Shown here in pieces: positions 1,789 to 11,640 of a stretch of 11,652 nt of DNA. A program made the position numbers and the translations under genes. Source of the DNA: Gemmatimonadota bacterium. GTDB lineage: Bacteria; Latescibacterota; UBA2968; UBA8231. Each line of letters begins with the position of its first letter. Positions within the stretch are counted from its first letter, which is position 1. The notes below the pieces were generated by a model, which was given only the letters and a program-made list of their open reading frames with translations, did not search any database and was not told the DNA's origin. Location: the NCBI GenBank assembly GCA_018673255.1, contig JABHDC010000198.1, positions 1 to 11,652 on the forward strand, read 5' to 3'.

Positions 1789-2898
1789 TCAGTAGATCAG
1801 ATAGAAACCTGAGTCGGGTCGGGCGACGGCCGCGGCCCGACTCCAGGGAGGGATCGCGGTGGTGATCCTGCCGGTATCGATCAGCTGCAATGCAGGATCA
1901 AACAACAGCCAGACCAGATCGCCGCCCTGTGCCCAGGCGGTGCCTTGGGCCCACGCGATCAGCAGCTGACCGGCAGCGTCCATGGCGATAGTGGGGTGTT
2001 TGCGGCCATCCCCATCGCCCGGCACGGCCCTTGGCGTGGACACCCCCGACGCTGACACCTTGGCCCACCAGATCTGCCCCTCTCTCTCCCACGCAAGCAG
2101 CGCACCGTCTGAAGACGGCTCGATCGCGGCTGTACTCATGGGGCACATGGAGGACTCCCAGGAATCCAGAGCGATCTGCTCGAATTGGTCGCCATTACCC
2201 CGCAGCAACTGCATTCCTCGCTCGGTCCCGCCCGTGGCACCACGGAAGAGGACGAACATCTCACTGCCTGCTGCGGCCCGCATGCCGCAACAGCCGCAGG
2301 CACCACTTTCTACCGGATTGGCTCGAGACTCAGCCGAGAAGGTACGCCCGCTGTCGGGCGACGACGCCACCCAGAGCCGGCGTGTGGATTCATCGGCCCC
2401 TGCATGCCAGGCGACATGGACGTTCCCGTCCCCATTTGCTGCCAGCGAGCCACCACCATCAAGGTGGTGTTCGTGTTGTGTGACATTTCGCTGGGGTTCA
2501 AAACCGCCCGCCGCGTCGCTGCGGGTGTAATACATGCCCGGATTCTCGTGGTCGGACGACATCCAGGCGACATGGATCCGATCCGCGCCCAGTGCCATGT
2601 GGCCCCCACGGACGGTGCCTATGGCGATGACCGTGCTGGCCACACCGTTCACCCGTACGGGGGCGGCAAAGATCGGGGCGGTGGCCGGGACGGATGGCGC
2701 GCGGGTGTAGTACAGGTCTCCAGCCGCGGGTTCGCCGGCGAAATACAGAAGGTGAAGGTTGCCATCCGCATCGATGGCCCCCTCGGGCTGTAGGCCACCT
2801 GAGGGGATTCGCAGGAATTCGATCGTGGGGGCAGCCGTTGAGGCAGTACACACACCGGCAACCAGCAGGAGCGGGAGCAGTCCGTTTCGTATCAGCAT
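1789..2898 (-). CDS. Exported sialidase-like beta-propeller protein with CGCC and CPM motifs
   Basis: 369 residues. Residues 1-23 are a signal peptide ending STAA, so the protein is periplasmic or secreted. The rest consists of repeated short beta-strand motifs (GNLHLLYF 46-53, RIHVAWMS 107-114, GNVHVAWH 158-165, GALLAWE) typical of sialidase/BNR propellers, with one good Asp-box, SPDSGRTF (180-187). The Arg triad and catalytic Tyr/Glu of true sialidases are not evident, so glycosidase activity is doubtful. Unusual for an exported protein are Cys201, Cys203 and Cys204 (CGCC, then GMR), Cys252 in CPM, and the cluster QHEHH (141-145), which could bind metal or form disulfides. An in-frame TAG 10 nt upstream leaves ATG 2898 as the only good start; no Shine-Dalgarno is visible and a hairpin abuts the ATG. 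It is last in the minus-strand operon, 35 nt after the response regulator. Confidence 0.82.
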   Translation of the reverse strand: MLIRNGLLPLLLVAGVCTASTAAPTIEFLRIPSGGLQPEGAIDADGNLHLLYFAGEPAAGDLYYTRAPSVPATAPIFAAPVRVNGVASTVIAIGTVRGGHMALGADRIHVAWMSSDHENPGMYYTRSDAAGGFEPQRNVTQHEHHLDGGGSLAANGDGNVHVAWHAGADESTRRLWVASSPDSGRTFSAESRANPVESGACGCCGMRAAAGSEMFVLFRGATGGTERGMQLLRGNGDQFEQIALDSWESSMCPMSTAAIEPSSDGALLAWEREGQIWWAKVSASGVSTPRAVPGDGDGRKHPTIAMDAAGQLLIAWAQGTAWAQGGDLVWLLFDPALQLIDTGRITTAIPPWSRAAAVARPDSGFYLIY

Positions 2899-2933: not shown

Positions 2934-4343
2934 TCAGTCGTCCTCTTCCGCGGCCACCTGGTGAGCATCGATGTGATACTTCGACAGCAGCCGATGTAGT
3001 GAGCGTCGGTCGATGCCGGAATGCTCGGCGGAGCGCGAGATGTTGCCCTTGAAGCTCTTGAGGACTTCGACGATATAGCGCTTTTCGAAGTCCTCGATCA
3101 GATGTTCCTTGGCGTCCTTGAAAGGCAGGTCCAGGTAGAATTCCGGGTGATCGCCGGCGCTGGTGCCTTCTGATTTCTTCACACTGGGCGGCAGATCTTC
3201 CGGCTGTACCACATCGTCGCTGGCCAGCACGAGGGCGCGTTCAATGACGTTCTGCAATTCGCGCACGTTTCCCCGCCACTCGGATCCCATCAGCAGGTCC
3301 ATCGCCTCAGGGGAGATGGTGGCCAGATTCATGCCGTTCTTTTGCGAGTAGACATGCAGATAGTGGTCGGCGAGCAGGGCGATGTCGTCACGTCGTTCGC
3401 GCAGGGGCGGGAGATGGATAGGGAAGGTGTTGATCCGGTAATAGAGATCCTCGCGGAATTCACCCTCGTCGACGACCTGCTCGAGGTTGCGGTTGGTGGC
3501 ACACACAAGGCGCACATTGACCTCGCGTTCCTGATTGCTGCCGAGGCGTCGGAAACGACCATCCTCCAGAACACGCAGGAATTTAACCTGTAGAGACGGT
3601 GGCAGTTCGCCGATTTCATCCAGGAAGAACGTGCCACCATGAGCCTCTTCGAGCAGTCCCGGCTTGGGGCGTGCAGCACTGGTAAAGGCCCCCTTCTCGA
3701 ACCCGAAGATCTCGCTCTCCACGAGATTCTCCGGCAGGGCGCCGCAGTTGATCGGCACGAAGGGACCTGAGGAGCGCTTGCTGTTGGCATGGATGGATCG
3801 GGCAATCAGTTCCTTGCCTGTGCCACTGGCCCCGGTGATCAGCACTGAGATATCGGTTTCGGCGATCTTCTTGATGGACTCGAAGATCTGCGTCATGGCG
3901 GAGCTCTTGCCGATGATATTGTCGAAACTGTAGTGACGGCTCAGCTGATCCTTGAGACTTTGATTCTCGCGCCGCAACGTACGCTTTTCCAGTGCCTTCT
4001 CGATCACAATGAGCAGATGATCGGGTGTGAAGGGCTTGGGGACGAAGTCGACGGCGCCGAGCCGCATCGCCTCGACAGCATCTTCGACGGTGCTGTAGGC
4101 GGTCATCATGAGCACCTGAATCTCGGGGGACGCCTCCCGCACTTTGCGCAGCAATTCCATGCCGCCCATACCTGGCATCTTGAGGTCTGTCAGTACGAGC
4201 TGGAAGTCTTCTGTCGAGAGGATCTCCAGGGCTTCTTCCGCACTGGCGGCGACACCGGTGCCGTAGCCCCGGCTGTCCAACAGGCGAGTACAACTGGCGG
4301 CGAGATCGACCTCATCATCGACGACGAGTATGCGTTCAGACAT
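2934..4343 (-). CDS. NtrC-family sigma-54-dependent response regulator
   Basis: 469 residues, full length for the family. REC domain (1-118): Asp9/Asp10, phospho-acceptor Asp53, Thr81, Lys103. AAA+ domain (about 142-375): Walker A GASGTGKE (171-178), Walker B in GGTFFLDE (236-243), the arginine-rich REDLYYRI segment and GNVRELQN (sensor II). A Fis-type helix-turn-helix closes the protein (about 425-462, with NISRSAEHSGIDRRSLHRLL). The sigma-54 contact loop reads GAFTSA (218-223), not the canonical GAFTGA, and is preceded by GFEK where GHEK is usual. When phosphorylated such proteins bind upstream enhancers and remodel sigma-54 polymerase. Its start overlaps the kinase stop by 8 nt, so that kinase is the likely partner. 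A likely target is the -24/-12 promoter of its own operon (6464-6479). It is ZraR/AtoC-like in layout, but no specific ortholog is assignable. Confidence 0.95.
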   Translation of the reverse strand: MSERILVVDDEVDLAASCTRLLDSRGYGTGVAASAEEALEILSTEDFQLVLTDLKMPGMGGMELLRKVREASPEIQVLMMTAYSTVEDAVEAMRLGAVDFVPKPFTPDHLLIVIEKALEKRTLRRENQSLKDQLSRHYSFDNIIGKSSAMTQIFESIKKIAETDISVLITGASGTGKELIARSIHANSKRSSGPFVPINCGALPENLVESEIFGFEKGAFTSAARPKPGLLEEAHGGTFFLDEIGELPPSLQVKFLRVLEDGRFRRLGSNQEREVNVRLVCATNRNLEQVVDEGEFREDLYYRINTFPIHLPPLRERRDDIALLADHYLHVYSQKNGMNLATISPEAMDLLMGSEWRGNVRELQNVIERALVLASDDVVQPEDLPPSVKKSEGTSAGDHPEFYLDLPFKDAKEHLIEDFEKRYIVEVLKSFKGNISRSAEHSGIDRRSLHRLLSKYHIDAHQVAAEEDD

Positions 4344-5484
4344 CCTGGGATTTCATCCTTTGCTCGTCAGGTCTCTGCGAGTCTGAGCCATTGCCGGCAC
4401 AGGGCAGATAGAGGGTAAAACGGGACCCTTTGCCCGGTTCGCTGGCAGCGACTAAGTGGCCATCATGGTCCTGGGCGATGCCGTAACTCACCGACAGGCC
4501 GAGACCGGTGCCCTGATTGGGCTCCTTCGTCGTAAAGAAAGGATCGAAGACACGTTCAAGCTGATGTGCATTCATCCCAATTCCTGTGTCCTGAACATAC
4601 ACGGCGACGAAACCATCGAATTCACCGCCGCCGATTCCAGATCCAAAAGTCAGGCAGCCACCCTCAGGCATCGCGTCGACGGCGTTGTTGACGAGATTGA
4701 GCAGAACCTGCTCGACGCGGGAGCCATCCGCTATCACTGGAGGCAGCAAATCGGTCAGATCCAGTGCGACCTCAACTCGGCGGCTCTGAAACAGGCCACT
4801 CATCAAACCTGCCGACCGCTTGACGATATCGTTTACGTCCAGGGGCGACATCGCCCCTGCCGTCGACGACTGCCGTGAGAATGTCAGCAAGCCAGCGACG
4901 ATGTGGCCGATCTTCTCGACTTGCCGGCGAATCACCGCAAGGTCCTCTTCGAGTTCGGTCGGCCCATTCGTGATGGCCGGTGACTCACTCAGCTGGCCTG
5001 CCCGCATGAGGATGATACCTGCGGGGTTGTTGACTTCATGAGCCACACCGGCAGCCAACTCACCCACTGCGGCAAGACGGGCGGCCTGCTGAAGCTGTTG
5101 TTGAGAGCGCTCCAGTTCGTAGGTGCGTTCATCGACCTTCTGACCCAGGGCGCTCTGAGCGGCATCCAGCGACGTCGCCATGTGGTCGAAGGCGCCGGCA
5201 AGGCGCCCAATCTCATCGTCTGAGTCGATCTGTAGACGGCGGTCGAGGTGCCCTTCTCCCAGTGCCTGTGCCAGATCGGTCAGGTCACGCAGTGGACGGG
5301 TAATATGACGGACGGCGAAATATACAGCGAAGGCGACGCCTCCCATAGTCCAGGCGCCCAACAGCAGATGAGCCCGTTGCAGACCCCAGCCGTCGAGGCG
5401 GTCCCAGATGAGCCAATTGCCGACGGCCAGGATCGCCAACACGATGAAACTCACAGTCATGGATATTTTCGTGCTCAGGTTCAA
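4336..5484 (-). CDS. Membrane sensor histidine kinase (2TM-HAMP-HisKA-HATPase), partner of the NtrC-type regulator
   Basis: 382 residues. Two membrane helices (about 9-27 and 39-58) enclose only ~11 residues (DRLDGWGLQRA), so there is essentially no periplasmic sensor domain. HAMP is about 59-112, followed by a Gln-rich coiled coil (115-136). HisKA has the phosphorylated His149 in AAGVAHEVNNPAG. The ATPase domain shows an N-box (NLVNNAVDAM), G1 (DTGIGM), F-box (FDPFFTTK) and G2 (GTGLGLS). This is the NtrB/ZraS type of kinase that phosphorylates sigma-54 activators, and the regulator gene overlaps its stop. The signal must enter through the membrane, HAMP or another protein; the PilZ protein upstream is a candidate. 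The start at 5484 is TTG, chosen because it supplies the usual short basic stretch before TM1; ATG 5460 (residue 9) is the alternative. Neither has a convincing Shine-Dalgarno. Confidence 0.93.
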   Translation of the reverse strand: MNLSTKISMTVSFIVLAILAVGNWLIWDRLDGWGLQRAHLLLGAWTMGGVAFAVYFAVRHITRPLRDLTDLAQALGEGHLDRRLQIDSDDEIGRLAGAFDHMATSLDAAQSALGQKVDERTYELERSQQQLQQAARLAAVGELAAGVAHEVNNPAGIILMRAGQLSESPAITNGPTELEEDLAVIRRQVEKIGHIVAGLLTFSRQSSTAGAMSPLDVNDIVKRSAGLMSGLFQSRRVEVALDLTDLLPPVIADGSRVEQVLLNLVNNAVDAMPEGGCLTFGSGIGGGEFDGFVAVYVQDTGIGMNAHQLERVFDPFFTTKEPNQGTGLGLSVSYGIAQDHDGHLVAASEPGKGSRFTLYLPCAGNGSDSQRPDEQRMKSQDV

Positions 5485-5525
5485 AACACAGATGTCTCTC
5501 GTGACGGCCGATCTGGCACCGTCAG

Positions 5526-6437
5526 TCAGTTGGTGTTGTTGTCGCCATTCGGACCGCCAACCAGGTCCTCGGGGTCGTCGCGTTCACTGCGGTGGATCTC
5601 CTGCATCACGCGACGGATTTCCGTCACTGGTGGATCCAGGAAATGAAGACTGATGGACAACTCTCCGGCCGCAGTACGACGAGTACTGACGACGCCGGAT
5701 TGCGTCGGTGGTAGCCAATACTGTGAGTCGGCGGACCAGATTTCTACCACGTCGCCTGCCGACAACTCAACGTTGGCACAGATTGCCGCGCCTCCCTCAC
5801 TCAGATCCGAGAGGCGCCCGGAGATTGGCGTGATATCGACGATGACGTCATCATCCGGTGCCGTCTCCTCATCGTTCTTCTGTACCAGCCAGATGGCGAT
5901 CTCGGCCTCGACCCGGACGAAGCTGCGCTCGTGAAATTCGTGGTCTGCCCGGGCGCCGAGTTTTTGCAGAATCCCGGCCAGTAGTGCGATCTCCTTCTCG
6001 CGCCGGCGGATACGCTTGCGCAAATCGGCCGTCAGGAATTGCCGACCGCTGCCAGTGGCGAGAATACTCACCGGATCGGTGCCGCCTGACAGCCGGCGAG
6101 CGATACGCCGAAGGTTGGACACCTCAATCGGCCTGAATCCCAGGGCCCCCGCCTGCTCACCGAAGCTGCGTGCCGGGGGCCTGTGTGAGGCCTTAGAGGC
6201 TTTTGCAGGTCGCGTGGACCGGTTGTAGACCCGAGCCAGCAGGAAGATGCCCACCACGAGCAGCAGGGCCACGACGAGGAACCAGAGGACATCGCCCTGC
6301 TCGTCCGAGCGGACCGAACTGCCCATCATCCGCCACATGTCGGCGCGCTCGTCAGCTCCCGCCACTGCGACCCAACCGAGTGTGGCAGCCAGTAAGACCC
6401 ACTTGAGCAACACCATCGTGAATCGATTCGCACGCAT
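5526..6437 (-). CDS. Membrane-anchored PilZ-domain protein (putative c-di-GMP receptor)
   Basis: 303 residues from ATG 6437, chosen because a near-perfect Shine-Dalgarno (GGAGGTGATC) lies 8 nt upstream; an upstream in-frame TTG at 6455 would place that SD inside the gene. A signal-like hydrophobic segment (about 8-27, ending VAGADE) is followed by a short, probably periplasmic, stretch and a second TM helix (about 51-68). The cytoplasmic part has a basic linker, a region of unknown fold (about 90-165) and a C-terminal PilZ domain: RSFVR (171-175, RxxxR) and DLSEGG (211-216, DxSxxG). Both c-di-GMP-binding motifs are present, although the spacing between them is longer than usual. PilZ proteins change conformation on binding c-di-GMP and act on partners. 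It is the first gene of the operon, 41 nt before the kinase, which suggests it modulates that kinase or the exported propeller protein; this is inference. Confidence 0.85.
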   Translation of the reverse strand: MRANRFTMVLLKWVLLAATLGWVAVAGADERADMWRMMGSSVRSDEQGDVLWFLVVALLLVVGIFLLARVYNRSTRPAKASKASHRPPARSFGEQAGALGFRPIEVSNLRRIARRLSGGTDPVSILATGSGRQFLTADLRKRIRRREKEIALLAGILQKLGARADHEFHERSFVRVEAEIAIWLVQKNDEETAPDDDVIVDITPISGRLSDLSEGGAAICANVELSAGDVVEIWSADSQYWLPPTQSGVVSTRRTAAGELSISLHFLDPPVTEIRRVMQEIHRSERDDPEDLVGGPNGDNNTN

Positions 6438-6450
6438 GGTGATCACCTCC
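6438..6450 (-). promoter_or_regulatory. Strong Shine-Dalgarno fixing the PilZ gene start
   Basis: On the minus strand the bases GGAGGTGATCACC run directly into the ATG at 6437. Ten contiguous bases (GGAGGTGATC) match the complement of the 16S rRNA 3' end, with 8 nt between GGAGG and ATG. This is the strongest ribosome-binding site I see in the window and it decides the start. Confidence 0.92.
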
Positions 6451-6463
6451 GTCAACTCAGAGG

Positions 6464-6479
6464 CGCAATCTCCATGCCA
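6464..6479 (-). promoter_or_regulatory. Sigma-54 (-24/-12) promoter of the PilZ-kinase-regulator-propeller operon
   Basis: The minus strand reads TGGCATG-GAGA-TTGCG against the consensus TGGCACG-N4-TTGCW: one mismatch in the -24 block (C to T) and one at the last base. The invariant GG (6478-6477) and GC (6466-6465) are exactly 10 nt apart. The predicted transcript start is near 6453, 16 nt before the ATG, a leader that just contains the Shine-Dalgarno. The operon itself encodes a sigma-54 activator, so autoregulation is the natural reading. Confidence 0.82.
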
Positions 6480-6550
6480 TGATGAGATGACGGGCTCGTG
6501 ATGCTAATCGGTTGTGCGCGAACGGATTGGGATTGTCAAACCGACGTCGA

Positions 6551-6578
6551 CCAGGTTCCGGTAAGGGCACCGGACTGG
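6551..6578. promoter_or_regulatory. Inverted repeat, candidate enhancer (UAS) for the NtrC-type regulator
   Basis: TCCGGT (6557-6562) and ACCGGA (6569-6574) are perfect 6-bp inverted arms around a 6-nt spacer. They are flanked by CCAG (6551-6554) and CTGG (6575-6578), which are also complementary but offset by 2 nt. The centre lies about 112 bp upstream of the predicted sigma-54 start (near 6453), a usual distance for an enhancer bound by a Fis-type HTH dimer. Binding is inferred from position and symmetry only. Confidence 0.45.
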
Positions 6579-6639
6579 GACAAGTCTGTCGCAGTCATCG
6601 ATAGAATGGGACGTATCAGGGACAATACACGGATCAGGT

Positions 6640-6697
6640 GGGGCGGTGATGCCCCGACCGGGCTGACAGGCGTCAGCCTCGTCTCACCCTGCGAGAC
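6640..6697 (-). terminator. Three tandem hairpins after the hybrid kinase gene, probable termination region
   Basis: Within 80 nt after the minus-strand stop at 6716 lie three inverted repeats: GTCTC/GAGAC (6681-6685 and 6693-6697), a perfect 7-bp GGCTGAC/GTCAGCC with a 4-nt loop (6661-6678), and GGGGC/GCCCC with a 6-nt loop (6640-6655). No U-tract follows on either strand, so this is not a textbook intrinsic terminator. It may be Rho-assisted or protect the mRNA 3' end. Together with the candidate enhancer and the -24/-12 promoter it accounts for most of the 278-bp gap at 6438-6715. Confidence 0.4.
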
Positions 6698-6715
6698 TCG
6701 ATCTGCGCCCCTGCT

Positions 6716-8311
6716 TCAGTCGTCGAGCTGAAGTCGAACCTGCTCGAGCAATTCTGACATTCCCAGGGGTTTGTGGAGGACCGGGCAGCTGCGACGTCGT
6801 GCTTCATCCCAGTCGATACCACCATCTGTGTGTCCGGTGACAATGATGGATCGCAAACCGGGCGACAGATCCTGCAGTTCGTAAGCCAGGTCAGTGCCAC
6901 GACCATCGGGGAGCAGCAGATCGCTGACCAGCAGGTCGAAACGGGCACTGGCGTGAGCTCTGCGGGCACTGGTCAGATCGCCGCAGGATGTCACGCGATA
7001 GCCGCTGCCTGAGAGCACCTGCTCCATGCGATCCCGCAATTCAGCATCGTCCTCCACGAGCAGGACCAATTCGCCCTGACCTGTGGTCTCTTCCTCTTCC
7101 TCTACCTTGGCCGTGCTGCTGACTTGGGTGCCCTCGCCACTGGGCAGGTAGATCTCGAAGCAGGACCCCTTGCCGGGCGTGCTGTGAACCTTGAGCCAGC
7201 CGCCGTGCGCCTCGACGATGCCATAGACGACTGAGAGCCCGAGCCCGGTTCCCTTGCCCGATTCCTTTGTGGTGAAGAACGGTTCGAACACCCGATCCTG
7301 TATCTCAACATCCATGCCCACACCGCTGTCATGGACGGCGAGCAGACAATACGGTCCCGGTTTGCCGCGACGATCCGTGTCCTGATCGGTGATCAGGATC
7401 GTGCGCGTCTCAATCGTCAGCACGCCTCCCTCGGGCATCGCGTCGCGTGCGTTGACGCACAGATTGATGAGAACCTGGTCGAGATTGCCGGGATCGGCAT
7501 CGACGATGCACATCTGGTCGGCCAGCTGCAGGACCACGTCGATATTGGCACCCAGGAGACGGCCCATCATCTTGCGCAGCTCGCCTACGTGATGATTCAA
7601 ATCGACGGGCTGTGGTTCCATCCGCTGGCGTCGGCTGAAGACGAGCAACTGCCGCGTCAGGTCTGCCGCCCGCAATACGGTCTTGCGGATCTTCTTCAGA
7701 TCGTCGCGCAACGAGGTCTCGTCGACCCGGGCCAGCAGCATGTCGACATCGAACAGCAGGATCCCCAACTGGTTATTGAAGTCGTGGGCGACGCCACCGG
7801 CCAACTGACCCACAGATTCCATCTTCTGTGCCTGGAGCAACTGCAATTCCAGTTGTTTTCGATCGGTGATGTCGCGCACGACACCGGTGAATTTCCGGTG
7901 GCCCGCCTCGACGAATTCCCCGACTGACAGTTCCATGGGGAACTCGTGACCGTCCTTGCGGCGCCCTCGGACCTCTCGACCGATGCCGATGACGTGGCGT
8001 TGGCCCGTCTCCAGATAACGCTCCAGGTAGTCATTGTGCTGCGAGGCATAGGGTTCGGGCATCAGGATGTGAACCGGCTTGCCGATGGCCTCGCTGCTGT
8101 CGTAGCCGAACATCTTCGCTGCGGCGGGATTGAAGGACTCGATGTGGCCACGCTCGTCGATGGTGATGATTCCATCGATGACGTTGTCCACGACTGACTG
8201 GTAACGGACTTTGCCGTCAGAAGGTTCCGTCGAATGGGTCCCGGCCAACTCGCGGCGCAGGGCACGCACCTCCTCCAATAATTCGGCGCGTTCTTTCTCG
8301 TCAGATGCCAT
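6716..8311 (-). CDS. Soluble PAS hybrid histidine kinase with C-terminal receiver; FixL-type heme PAS signature
   Basis: 531 residues, no membrane segment. Order: short coiled coil (5-24), PAS (about 36-150), HisKA with His176 (AGGVAHDFNNQLG), HATPase (NLCVNARDAM, DSGVGM, FEPFFTTK, GTGLGLS), an acidic linker and a receiver domain (about 414-531; Asp421/Asp422, phospho-acceptor Asp464, Lys near the end in LHKPLG). The PAS region MPEPYASQHNDYLERYL followed by VIGIGREVRGRRKDG aligns with FixL: His92 falls on the heme-ligating His200 and Arg112 on the O2-contacting Arg220 of B. japonicum FixL, with the same 20-residue spacing; Val107, Leu128 and Val130 fall on its hydrophobic pocket. An oxygen or redox sensor is therefore plausible, but many non-heme PAS domains share this subfamily signature. 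There is no output domain, so it must signal through a separate protein. It starts 5 nt after the channel gene's stop, with a weak ribosome-binding site. Confidence 0.92.
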   Translation of the reverse strand: MASDEKERAELLEEVRALRRELAGTHSTEPSDGKVRYQSVVDNVIDGIITIDERGHIESFNPAAAKMFGYDSSEAIGKPVHILMPEPYASQHNDYLERYLETGQRHVIGIGREVRGRRKDGHEFPMELSVGEFVEAGHRKFTGVVRDITDRKQLELQLLQAQKMESVGQLAGGVAHDFNNQLGILLFDVDMLLARVDETSLRDDLKKIRKTVLRAADLTRQLLVFSRRQRMEPQPVDLNHHVGELRKMMGRLLGANIDVVLQLADQMCIVDADPGNLDQVLINLCVNARDAMPEGGVLTIETRTILITDQDTDRRGKPGPYCLLAVHDSGVGMDVEIQDRVFEPFFTTKESGKGTGLGLSVVYGIVEAHGGWLKVHSTPGKGSCFEIYLPSGEGTQVSSTAKVEEEEETTGQGELVLLVEDDAELRDRMEQVLSGSGYRVTSCGDLTSARRAHASARFDLLVSDLLLPDGRGTDLAYELQDLSPGLRSIIVTGHTDGGIDWDEARRRSCPVLHKPLGMSELLEQVRLQLDD

Positions 8312-8316
8312 GTGTA

Positions 8317-9339
8317 TCAGTCGGTGGCCGAGGCGGCCAGGGCCCCAACGCGTTGGAGTTGGTCGTCACTACCCAGAACGATGAGTCGGTCGCCCGTCCT
8401 GAGAGCCAGGGCAGAGAGGCTGGCTACATACCCGGGCTCGGCGCGCGGCCGGCCCTCATTGTCGTGGAGTCCGACGACGACGCAACCGGTCAGACGGCCG
8501 AGGTCGGCATCTCTCAGCGTACGCCCGATCATGCGACTGTCGCCGGCGATGGTGATCTCTTCCAGCCGCAGATCGACTCCCGATTCGTGGATAACCGTAT
8601 CCAGGAAGGCGGACACATTCGGCCGCAACACGGTGGCCGCCATGCGCCGGCCCGCGATCTCAAAGGGAGAGATGACGTGGTTGGCGCCGGCGACACGCAG
8701 TTTGCTCTCCGAGCCTTTTTCATTTGCCCGTGCGATGATGTGCAGATCGGCATTCAGCTGGCGCGCCGTGAGGGTGACGAAGACATTCTCAGGATCGTCG
8801 TGCAACGCTGCAATGAGTCCACGGGCGCGTTCGATGCCGGCTTGCTGCAGCACCTCTTCCTGGGTCGCATCGCCTTCCACGCACGGGAAGCCCGAATCAC
8901 CGGAGACCTGTGATGAATCAAGGTTGATCTCGACGACCACGAAGCTCTGCCCGGCCTGCTGAAAGGCACTGGCGATCTCTCGCCCGACGGCGCCACAGCC
9001 GCACACGATGTAGTGGTCCTGAAGATTGGCGATCTTTCGGTCCAAACGACGTCCTCGCAGCAGTGTCCGAAGTTCGCCCTGCACGATGAAGGCACTGACA
9101 CCGGCCACGGCGAAACCGGCAAAGGCAAAACCCAGCATGACAAAAGCTATGCTAAACCACTGCCCTTGGGGTGATAAAGGATGGACTTCGCCATATCCCA
9201 CCGTGCTCAGGGTGATGACGGTCATATAGAGCGACTCGCGCAGACTCCAGCCTTCGATCGAGGCGTATCCGAAGGTGCCACCCGCCGTCAGCAGCAACAG
9301 CAGCACCACGGCTGCGACAAAATGACGAGTAGGGGTCAT
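8317..9339 (-). CDS. Two-TM potassium channel with cytoplasmic RCK (TrkA-N/TrkA-C) domain, MthK-like
   Basis: 340 residues, close in length to MthK. TM1 is about 7-26; the pore helix and selectivity filter TVGYG (46-50, in TLSTVGYGE) mark a K+-selective channel; TM2 is about 61-86 and Gly-rich, which would allow gating bending. The RCK N-domain starts at about 108 with HYIVCGCGAVGRE (nucleotide-binding GxGxxG 114-119) and the acidic residue of VVVEIN at the end of the second strand. A TrkA-C domain (about 255-335, ending RTGDRLIVLGSDD) follows. Such channels form tetramers in the inner membrane, gated by Ca2+, nucleotides or other ligands on the RCK ring. It is the first gene of a pair with the hybrid kinase. 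Its ATG 9339 has a modest CAGGTCG upstream. Its 5' end is back to back with the methyltransferase gene. The ligand cannot be read from the sequence. Confidence 0.93.
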   Translation of the reverse strand: MTPTRHFVAAVVLLLLLTAGGTFGYASIEGWSLRESLYMTVITLSTVGYGEVHPLSPQGQWFSIAFVMLGFAFAGFAVAGVSAFIVQGELRTLLRGRRLDRKIANLQDHYIVCGCGAVGREIASAFQQAGQSFVVVEINLDSSQVSGDSGFPCVEGDATQEEVLQQAGIERARGLIAALHDDPENVFVTLTARQLNADLHIIARANEKGSESKLRVAGANHVISPFEIAGRRMAATVLRPNVSAFLDTVIHESGVDLRLEEITIAGDSRMIGRTLRDADLGRLTGCVVVGLHDNEGRPRAEPGYVASLSALALRTGDRLIVLGSDDQLQRVGALAASATD

Positions 9340-10956: not shown

Positions 10957-11484
10957 TCAGGCAGCGGTTGGACCATCGGAGATATCGATGTCGACCATGA
11001 TTTCATTGGCTACACCCTCAAGCGTTTCGCGCAGATGTTTCGTCGACACGCCCGTTGGCAATCGGACACTCAACGTTGCCGTGAAGAGGCGTCCACCCGA
11101 CATGGGAGCCTCCGCCGTCCCCGTCCGGATCTCCTCGATATTGATCCCGCCTTCACCGAGGGCACCTGACAGCTCACGCACGATGCCCGGCCGATCACTG
11201 CCAACCAGCTCGATCTGAACCGCGACGCCGGCGCTGTCCTCCTGGTCCCCGCTCTCGATGACGATCTGCAGGCCATCGGTGGACAACTCGCGCAGGGCCG
11301 CCTCCAGGGCCGAGGACCGCTCTTGCGCGACCTCCGCCCGCAGGATGCCGGCGAACTTGCCCGCCATTCGAGCCATCTGGCTCTCCTGCCAGCTGCCATC
11401 ATGTTCGGCCACGGCTCGCGACAGGGAACGGACCAGTCCAGGGCGATCGTCGCCGATTACGGTCAGCACCAGGGAAACGCTCAT
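10957..11484 (-). CDS. gcvR: GcvR-like double-ACT-domain protein (glycine cleavage system regulator family)
   Basis: 175 residues from ATG 11484. Two ACT domains in tandem: the first opens with SLVLTVIGDDRPGLV (4-18), the second with VQIELVGSDRPGIV in the C-terminal half; both carry the DRPG turn that binds small ligands, usually amino acids. There is no DNA-binding domain. E. coli GcvR has this layout and represses the glycine cleavage genes by binding the activator GcvA in response to glycine. GcvA is not in the window, so the symbol rests on layout and size. The frame is open to 11625, but that extension would translate the terminator and the tRNA, so it is not the true start. A weak GAGAGA lies upstream of the ATG. 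The gene converges on the lipoprotein gene with a 39-nt gap in which I see no terminator. Confidence 0.8.
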   Translation of the reverse strand: MSVSLVLTVIGDDRPGLVRSLSRAVAEHDGSWQESQMARMAGKFAGILRAEVAQERSSALEAALRELSTDGLQIVIESGDQEDSAGVAVQIELVGSDRPGIVRELSGALGEGGINIEEIRTGTAEAPMSGGRLFTATLSVRLPTGVSTKHLRETLEGVANEIMVDIDISDGPTAA

Positions 11485-11519
11485 CTGAAGTCTCTCTCGC
11501 GTGAAACGGCATCTTACAG

Positions 11520-11563: not shown

Positions 11564-11640
11564 TGGTGCACCCATAGGGACTCGAACCCCAAACCTCCTG
11601 ATCCGTAGTCAGGTGCTCTATCCAATTGAGCTATGGGTGC
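11564..11640 (-). tRNA. tRNA-Arg (anticodon ACG)
   Basis: 77-nt cloverleaf on the minus strand: acceptor GCACCCA/TGGGTGC, D-arm GCTC..GAGC, anticodon stem CCTGA/TCAGG with loop CTACGGA (anticodon ACG), a 5-nt variable loop, T-arm with loop TTCGAGT, discriminator A and an encoded CCA (11564-11566). All stems pair, with one G-U in the T-stem. ACG is normally converted to ICG by TadA and reads CGU, CGC and CGA. The promoter lies beyond the right edge of the window. Confidence 0.97.

Follow-up and report, generated by a model that had tools for sequence, protein, structure and literature searches.

A predicted sigma-54 promoter ahead of a PilZ-led two-component operon, with a recurrent upstream dyad and a putative regulon, in an uncultured bacterial lineage

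Introduction

Sigma-54 promoters follow the -24/-12 consensus TGGCAC-N5-TTGCW, and by their geometry the transcription start falls 12 nt beyond the C in the -12 GC. NtrC enhancers carry tandem dyads, and PilZ receptors for c-di-GMP carry the motif RxxxR plus DxSxxG. Among two-component operons, AtoSC and ZraSR combine a HAMP-type kinase core with a REC-AAA+-Fis regulator, and autoregulation of ZraR is mentioned in a passage of PMC12316311. In NorR, a serine at the GAFTGA position gives signal-free activity that is still partly regulated, according to a section of PMC2941729. Desulfovibrio activators carry other GAFTGA variants, GAFTSA not being among those listed in a section of PMC4641369, by which 10 of the 12 variant activators would keep activity.

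Here, we analysed an 11,652-nt stretch of DNA (contig JABHDC010000198.1; hereafter the window), for which a preliminary description made from the bare sequence had proposed a sigma-54 promoter. Like AtoSC and ZraSR, the operon behind this site encodes a kinase and a regulator of the architectures named above and is probably under sigma-54 control and autoregulated. In contrast to these systems, its proteins score below the equivalog cut-offs (for AtoC, 484 of 714 bits), its kinase shows by eye no sizeable periplasmic domain, a PilZ gene leads the operon, and both the upstream dyad and the predicted targets differ.

Results

A near-perfect sigma-54 core match precedes an operon with its own activator

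The preliminary description had placed -24 and -12 blocks with exact GG-N10-GC spacing here, and its coordinates and anatomy were right, on the minus strand (Table 1; on this strand the sequence reads TCATCATGGCATGGAGATTGCGCCTCTGAGTTGACGGAGGTGATCACCATG). Scored against the sigma-54 consensus TGGCAYRNNNNTTGCW, TGGCATGGAGATTGCG matches 11 of 12 defined positions, the mismatch being the last base (G, not W). The Y at position 6 of this scoring consensus was picked after the site had been seen, and with the strict C the match is 10/12, a score equalled in the whole window by one other GG-N10-GC site, at 6899-6884 inside the PAS-kinase gene. The exact pattern TGGCAYN5TTGC occurs once in the window against 0.07 copies expected, with at least one copy in 12 of 200 shuffles. 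In the 287-nt region from the upstream gene to the start codon, a score of 11/12 was reached in 1 of 1000 dinucleotide shuffles, in agreement with the earlier argument that the match is not a chance one. Relaxed to two mismatches, the pattern does not stand out in the window (6 found, 4.6 expected), so that the case for the site draws on how nearly perfect the match is, where it lies and how it is conserved. The site shares with sigma-54 promoters the spacing, most consensus positions, an upstream candidate activator dyad and an activator gene in the operon, and differs from them in the T, instead of C, after TGGCA, in a spacer AGA that the consensus does not ask for, and in a very short predicted leader. 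No structured RNA was matched in Rfam at E 0.1 in 5400-6800, and 5526-6560 had no match among plasmids. RpoN is encoded in 7/7 relatives tested.

Table 1. Positions of promoter elements and genes in the window.
Feature	Position	Strand	Remarks
Sigma-54 core promoter TGGCATGGAGATTGCG, -24 TGGCA and -12 TTGC	6464..6479 (read 6479->6464)	minus	exact GG-N10-GC
Predicted transcription start (+1)	6453	minus	12 nt past C of GC; inferred from promoter geometry
Predicted 16-nt leader GACGGAGGTGATCACC	6438..6453	minus	sequence
Extended Shine-Dalgarno GGAGGTGATC	6441..6450	minus	sequence; before ATG 6437-6435
Candidate enhancer (UAS) dyad TGCGACA-GACT-TGTCCCA	6576..6593; GCGACAGACTTGTCCC = 6577-6592	minus-strand reading	centre ~-132 from predicted +1
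Degenerate second half-site CGTCCC	6608..6613	minus	31 bp from dyad; ungapped in L001 alignment; by eye, weak
Gene 1: PilZ-domain protein, 303 aa	5526..6437	minus	Pfam PF07238 E 2.3e-5, 25.1 bits (cut-off 22.5)
Gene 2: HAMP-HisKA-HATPase histidine kinase, AtoS/ZraS-like core	4336..5484	minus	Pfam, NCBIfam
Gene 3: REC-AAA+(sigma-54 activator)-HTH_8 response regulator, AtoC-like, GAFTSA loop	2934..4343	minus	Sigma54_activat E 2.2e-71
Possible gene 4: 369-aa protein	1789..2898	minus	35-nt gap after activator gene
Upstream neighbour: PAS-histidine kinase-receiver hybrid protein	6716..8311	minus	flanks promoter region

That the operon carries its own sigma-54 activator was borne out by Pfam, which assigns to gene 3 the NtrC-type domain set of a PF00072 receiver, a PF00158 sigma-54 AAA+ domain and a PF02954 Fis-type HTH. 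The best NCBIfam models for the regulator and the kinase are AtoC and AtoS, each below its cut-off. The regulator reads GAFTSA instead of GAFTGA, alone among eight aligned regulators, while the HTH stretch GIDRRSLHRLL is identical in 8/8. Among the best 120 of 5418 matches, GAFTGA was found 93 times, GAFTDA 18 times, GAFTSA three times and other variants six times; the three GAFTSA proteins among the matches listed are the window protein (P0009), an identical fragment (P0074) and P0012. By analogy with the NorR serine variant, a GAFTSA-like loop need not mean an inactive regulator, and in the window activator it may raise basal activity.

The PilZ protein encoded by gene 1 is probably membrane-anchored, with two hydrophobic stretches seen by eye. 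Residues R171 and R175 of RxxxR and D211, S213 and G216 of DxSxxG are invariant in 7/7 aligned sequences, as in PilZ c-di-GMP receptors, which makes c-di-GMP binding plausible. In contrast to those receptors, the protein has hydrophobic N-terminal stretches and sits in a sigma-54 two-component operon. Its fold model was unreliable (mean pLDDT 57.5) and too poor for a fold search. P0001, from a source named Gemmatimonadetes bacterium, is 99% identical to it and also has 303 aa. Relatives of the regulator that bear a name were, among the matches listed, Gemmatimonadetes, Gemmatimonadota or Latescibacterota/Latescibacteria. Elsewhere in the window, a tRNA-Arg (acg) lies at 11564-11640 on the minus strand.

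The core promoter is conserved at operons of relatives with and without PilZ

A single locus of the genome collection, L001 (JABJJN010000003.1, genome G001), was confirmed to hold a relative of the PilZ gene. Synteny with the window comprises an RND pump (86%), a 146-aa protein, the 369-aa protein, the regulator (87%), the kinase (77%), PilZ (55%), the PAS hybrid (80%), an RsmB/F-like protein and a 203-aa protein; the last window gene (10957-11508) had no match in L001. Nor did the TrkA-type potassium channel gene at 8317-9339 (minus strand), which is partially matched (109 residues) in L102. The longest exact match between the upstream regions of the window and L001 is the identical 16-nt core TGGCATGGAGATTGCG, followed by the Shine-Dalgarno CGGAGGTGATC (11 nt) and a third match of 9 nt. 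In L001, an in-frame ATG inside the core, at 7890, lets the gene caller extend PilZ by 13 codons, from 313 to 326 aa. When 64 genomes of the phylum were searched for PilZ, no second PilZ-led operon beyond L001 appeared among the best matches, so the evidence for a conserved PilZ-led form comes from two loci.

Of the 47 genomes in the class of G001, seven, including G001 itself, match the regulator at 1e-170. Six other loci (L102, L097, L103, L104, L105 and L106) had no PilZ match (E 1e-10) in the stretches examined, and in 6/6 a core site starts the activator's operon. It reads GGGCATGAAGATTGCA in L102 and L097, CGGCATAGAGATTGCT in L103, L104 and L105, and CGGCACGAGAATTGCG in L106, where gene order differs. 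Conservation of the GG and GC blocks at orthologous loci, on which the preliminary description had staked its proposal in advance, was therefore found throughout, with an identical 16-mer in L001 and a -24/-12 site in all six further loci. Shuffles that scored as well numbered, of 1000, 3 for L102, 6 for L097, 5 for L103, 7 for L104, 3 for L105 and 65 for L106, whose predicted site is weak. In a MAFFT alignment of the window, L001, L102, L103, L104 and L105, six of the eight loci, GGCAT..AGATTGC was the only long invariant run. The spacer bases AGA (6469-6471 in the window, minus strand) are common to 7/8 loci. Several of the eight loci are close relatives and, by our grouping, form about four independent groups.

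Gene order around the site is likewise shared. The PAS hybrid lies upstream of the same promoter in L001, L102, L103, L104 and L105; in the latter four the core lies between the PAS hybrid and the kinase, and the L097 contig ends before the hybrid. The 369-aa protein has no Pfam or NCBIfam match and is matched beside the activator in L001, L102 and L097; its CGCCGM motif is also present in L001. Only in the window and L001, of the eight loci, does the PilZ gene sit between promoter and kinase gene. Five loci of PilZ paralogs were also looked at: no site was seen upstream of L008, the script found no open frame at L006 and L009, and the upstream stretch of L004 was uninformative (long open frame). 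At L005 (G047), an unlinked paralog, GGGCAGGTTTGTTGCT (10/12) lies ~190 nt upstream of the likely start.

A short predicted leader with a strong Shine-Dalgarno marks the PilZ-led form

The preliminary description had held that the leader is just long enough for a Shine-Dalgarno. The predicted 16-nt leader indeed holds GGAGGTGATC before the ATG; such a tight leader was seen in the two PilZ-led loci only. By the same count the L001 leader is 17 nt, its GC-to-Shine-Dalgarno distance being off by one base from that of the window. In two relatives without PilZ, a count by hand gave longer distances from the predicted start to the kinase (~37 nt in L102 and ~59 nt in L103), and no such Shine-Dalgarno was seen there. 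This separates the two elements: as judged from these comparisons, the promoter goes with the kinase-regulator operon, whereas the tight Shine-Dalgarno leader is a trait of the PilZ-led form. An in-frame TTG at 6455 is unlikely as the start since it lies upstream of the predicted +1. A palindrome in the leader, GGTGATCACC, was taken as chance and is not kept in L001.

To place this leader in a wider range, we surveyed the 7.1-Mb genome of G001, where GGAGGTGATC-N(2-7)-ATG occurs at only 8 sites. TGGCAYN5TTGC was found 73 times, against 21 for the backward-read pattern, and 41 of the 73 sites were followed, by script, by a start codon with a Shine-Dalgarno of at least 4 bases and a long enough frame. 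Among these 41, the L001 site has the shortest GC-to-start distance that leaves a real leader (28 nt; next 30), two rows that are shorter still (8 and 12 nt) leaving at most one leader base. Other relatives have similar distances, 25-29 nt, at three sites linked to a dyad (L162, L171 and L138). The leader is thus at the short end of the range and strongly built, yet not unique.

A candidate enhancer dyad recurs upstream of the core

Inverted repeats in the upstream regions suggested a dyad, which we scored as GRGACA-N4-TGTCYC. The window scores 11/12 at -132, L001 10/12 at -66, L102 and L097 12/12 at -108, L103 12/12 at -152, L104 11/12 at both -118 and -152, L105 11/12 at -152 and L106 9/12 at -112. 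Like NtrC enhancers, the family has dyads upstream of the promoter with a second copy, 33 bp away, in L102 (10/12), L103 (9/12), L104 (11/12) and L105 (9/12); no second copy was seen in L097. It departs from NtrC enhancers in its motif and in the second copies of L103 and L105, which reach only 9/12, and the window and L001 keep one dyad plus a half-site 31 bp away. Among 593 random 250-nt windows, 19% reach 9/12 and 2.4% reach 10/12; since 9/12 is common by chance, the L106 dyad and the 9/12 copies carry no weight. The window dyad differs from the best dyad at one position and would not stand out in the window by itself (0.64-0.69 expected), so that its weight comes from recurrence.

In relatives that encode this activator, the dyad turned up beside further sigma-54-like sites as well. 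Across 15 of 20 loci, a set that omits the near-duplicates L097, L104 and L105 as well as L106 and a site at -232, dyad positions showed helical phasing (Rayleigh R 0.59 at 10.5 bp, p 0.004). After repeated gene families had been collapsed p was 0.02 on 13 loci, and a preferred helical phase is only suggestive.

Dyads are concentrated in genomes that encode the activator

We then asked how the dyad is distributed among the 47 genomes. The seven activator genomes (40.1 Mb) contain 12 copies of exact GGGACA-N4-TGTCCC and the remaining 40 genomes (210.2 Mb) contain 7 (p 5e-6), in contrast to 2 and 40 copies of the backward-read control. With all 47 genomes pooled, the control is the commoner of the two (42 against 19 exact dyads), so that only its distribution speaks for the dyad. 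Ten of the 12 exact dyads in activator genomes have a GG-N10-GC site scoring at least 10 at 60-240 bp, and 6/12 have one scoring at least 11, compared with 127 of 2968 random centres (4.3%) and 0.6%, respectively. If the own-operon dyads of G046 and G047, a near-identical pair that helped to define the motif, are set aside, the count is 8/10; for exact dyads in the other genomes it is 2/7.

Composites of dyad and core, GACA-N4-TGTC-N(40-101)-GGYA-N6-TTGC, numbered 23 in activator genomes and 22 in the others (p 5e-8), or 20 and 22 once the G046/G047 duplicates were merged (p 2e-6); the backward control gave 1 and 9. For dyad and composite, density is 5- to 9-fold higher in the genomes that encode the regulator. 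Of the composites, 13 of the 23 in activator genomes and 6 of the 22 in the others include a full 12/12 dyad. Many of the 23 are probably chance: ten lack a full dyad, and several have long open frames across the site.

Target genes were assigned by Pfam, with NCBIfam scores looked at below the cut-offs. Besides the activator's own operon (L170, L159), genes behind full dyads encode a B12-binding corrinoid protein (L135 and L140, in G001 and G047), a 2-oxoacid:acceptor oxidoreductase alpha-like protein (L163, G001), a PFL-like protein (L162, G038), succinate-CoA-ligase-beta-like proteins (L138 in G040, L171 in G047), a CBM9-like protein (L158, G046) and an FG-GAP protein (L168 and L169, the scan covering L169 only). 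The L133 target had no match in the scan, and the 13 full dyads also include L164, which was unscanned. A composite with an 11/12 dyad precedes a universal stress protein gene (L141, G040). Such functions would point to fermentative or anaerobic carbon metabolism. A simple picture with one regulator is complicated by full dyads beside promoter-like sites in G008-G012 (L144, L145, L160, L146, L147 and L148), of which only G008 matches the regulator at 1e-130 or better (9e-136); the dyads of these genomes may be read by another activator.

Discussion

Our analyses indicate that 6479-6438 on the minus strand is probably a functional sigma-54 promoter plus leader of a positively autoregulated two-component operon. 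RNA polymerase with sigma-54 would wait at the -24/-12 core, and transcription would accordingly depend on rpoN. The operon's response regulator, phosphorylated most simply by the operon's own kinase, would bind the GRGACA-N4-TGTCYC dyad at about -132, loop to the polymerase and open the promoter, resulting in positive autoregulation. The transcript would begin near 6453, its first nucleotides serving as the ribosome site of the PilZ gene, and, with this gene lying between promoter and kinase gene in this lineage, the same switch would also control a predicted c-di-GMP-binding protein. It is an ordinary kind of promoter, well supported, in an uncultured lineage; what is added is the recurrent dyad and the predicted regulon.

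It is unlikely, though worth weighing, that the promoter is real and driven in trans by a different activator, with the operon's regulator acting elsewhere. The higher density of dyads and composites where the regulator is encoded speaks against such a division, as do the own-operon dyads of L102, L097 and L103 among the full 12/12 ones, even if genomes without a close ortholog also hold composites, 6/22 with a full dyad. Another signalling input does lie nearby in the PAS hybrid kinase, which is syntenic with the promoter in five loci. The unusual GAFTSA loop of the window regulator would fit a trans activator as well, but the NorR serine variant, active without signal, is described in a section of PMC2941729 as still partly regulated.

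A chance match, the operon being transcribed by read-through out of the PAS-kinase gene or by way of a housekeeping promoter that escaped recognition, is highly improbable. Eight loci carry a site, seven of them at a shuffle frequency of 0.1-0.7% each, the core is the best-conserved DNA between genes, and no sigma-70-like site was found in 6400-6800. Against this, a consensus match is no proof, another window site ties under the strict consensus, no terminator-like site was found in 6400-6800 that would stop read-through, and, to our knowledge, promoters of this phylum are poorly known. We rejected, as scarcely credible, that the conserved block is coding, an N-terminal extension of PilZ from the ATG inside TGGCATGG: the L001 ATG is in frame with PilZ (326-aa ORF), but in the window the frame is broken, reading ATG GAG ATT GCG CCT CTG AGT TGA with a stop after 7 codons, so that coding does not explain the conservation, no Shine-Dalgarno is seen by eye ahead of this ATG, the block is kept at loci without PilZ, the later start is the one used by P0002 and P0004, and P0001 is as long as the window protein (303 aa).

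Returning to the proposed autoregulated sigma-54 operon, a small anaerobic-metabolism regulon is probably attached to it, as far as dyads and gene assignments can tell. On a more speculative reading, less likely than not, the promoter would be the hub of an undescribed sigma-54 regulon of the lineage, in which an AtoC-like regulator reads GRGACA-N4-TGTCYC dyads that keep a preferred helical phase to sigma-54 promoters and turns on, besides its own operon, corrinoid-protein, 2-oxoacid oxidoreductase, PFL-like, succinate-CoA-ligase and universal-stress genes. The branch of the window would then have a c-di-GMP-binding membrane PilZ protein directly behind the promoter, and a change of the regulator to GAFTSA that may relax its control. 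Among the open-access papers listed, no title or abstract described a regulon of this kind, and none by its title dealt with sigma-54 or RpoN in Latescibacter-named groups, publication elsewhere being possible.

A promoter guess from bare sequence has in this way become a module with a conservation footprint, a proposed activator, a proposed binding motif and named targets. Although the lineage lacks genetics, these predictions can be tested with in vitro transcription and reporters in a heterologous host. The locus presents a case of a PilZ gene between promoter and kinase gene, with a strong ribosome site near the predicted 5' end of the transcript. If the proposed regulon is true, c-di-GMP would be tied to a metabolic switch in the branch of the window.
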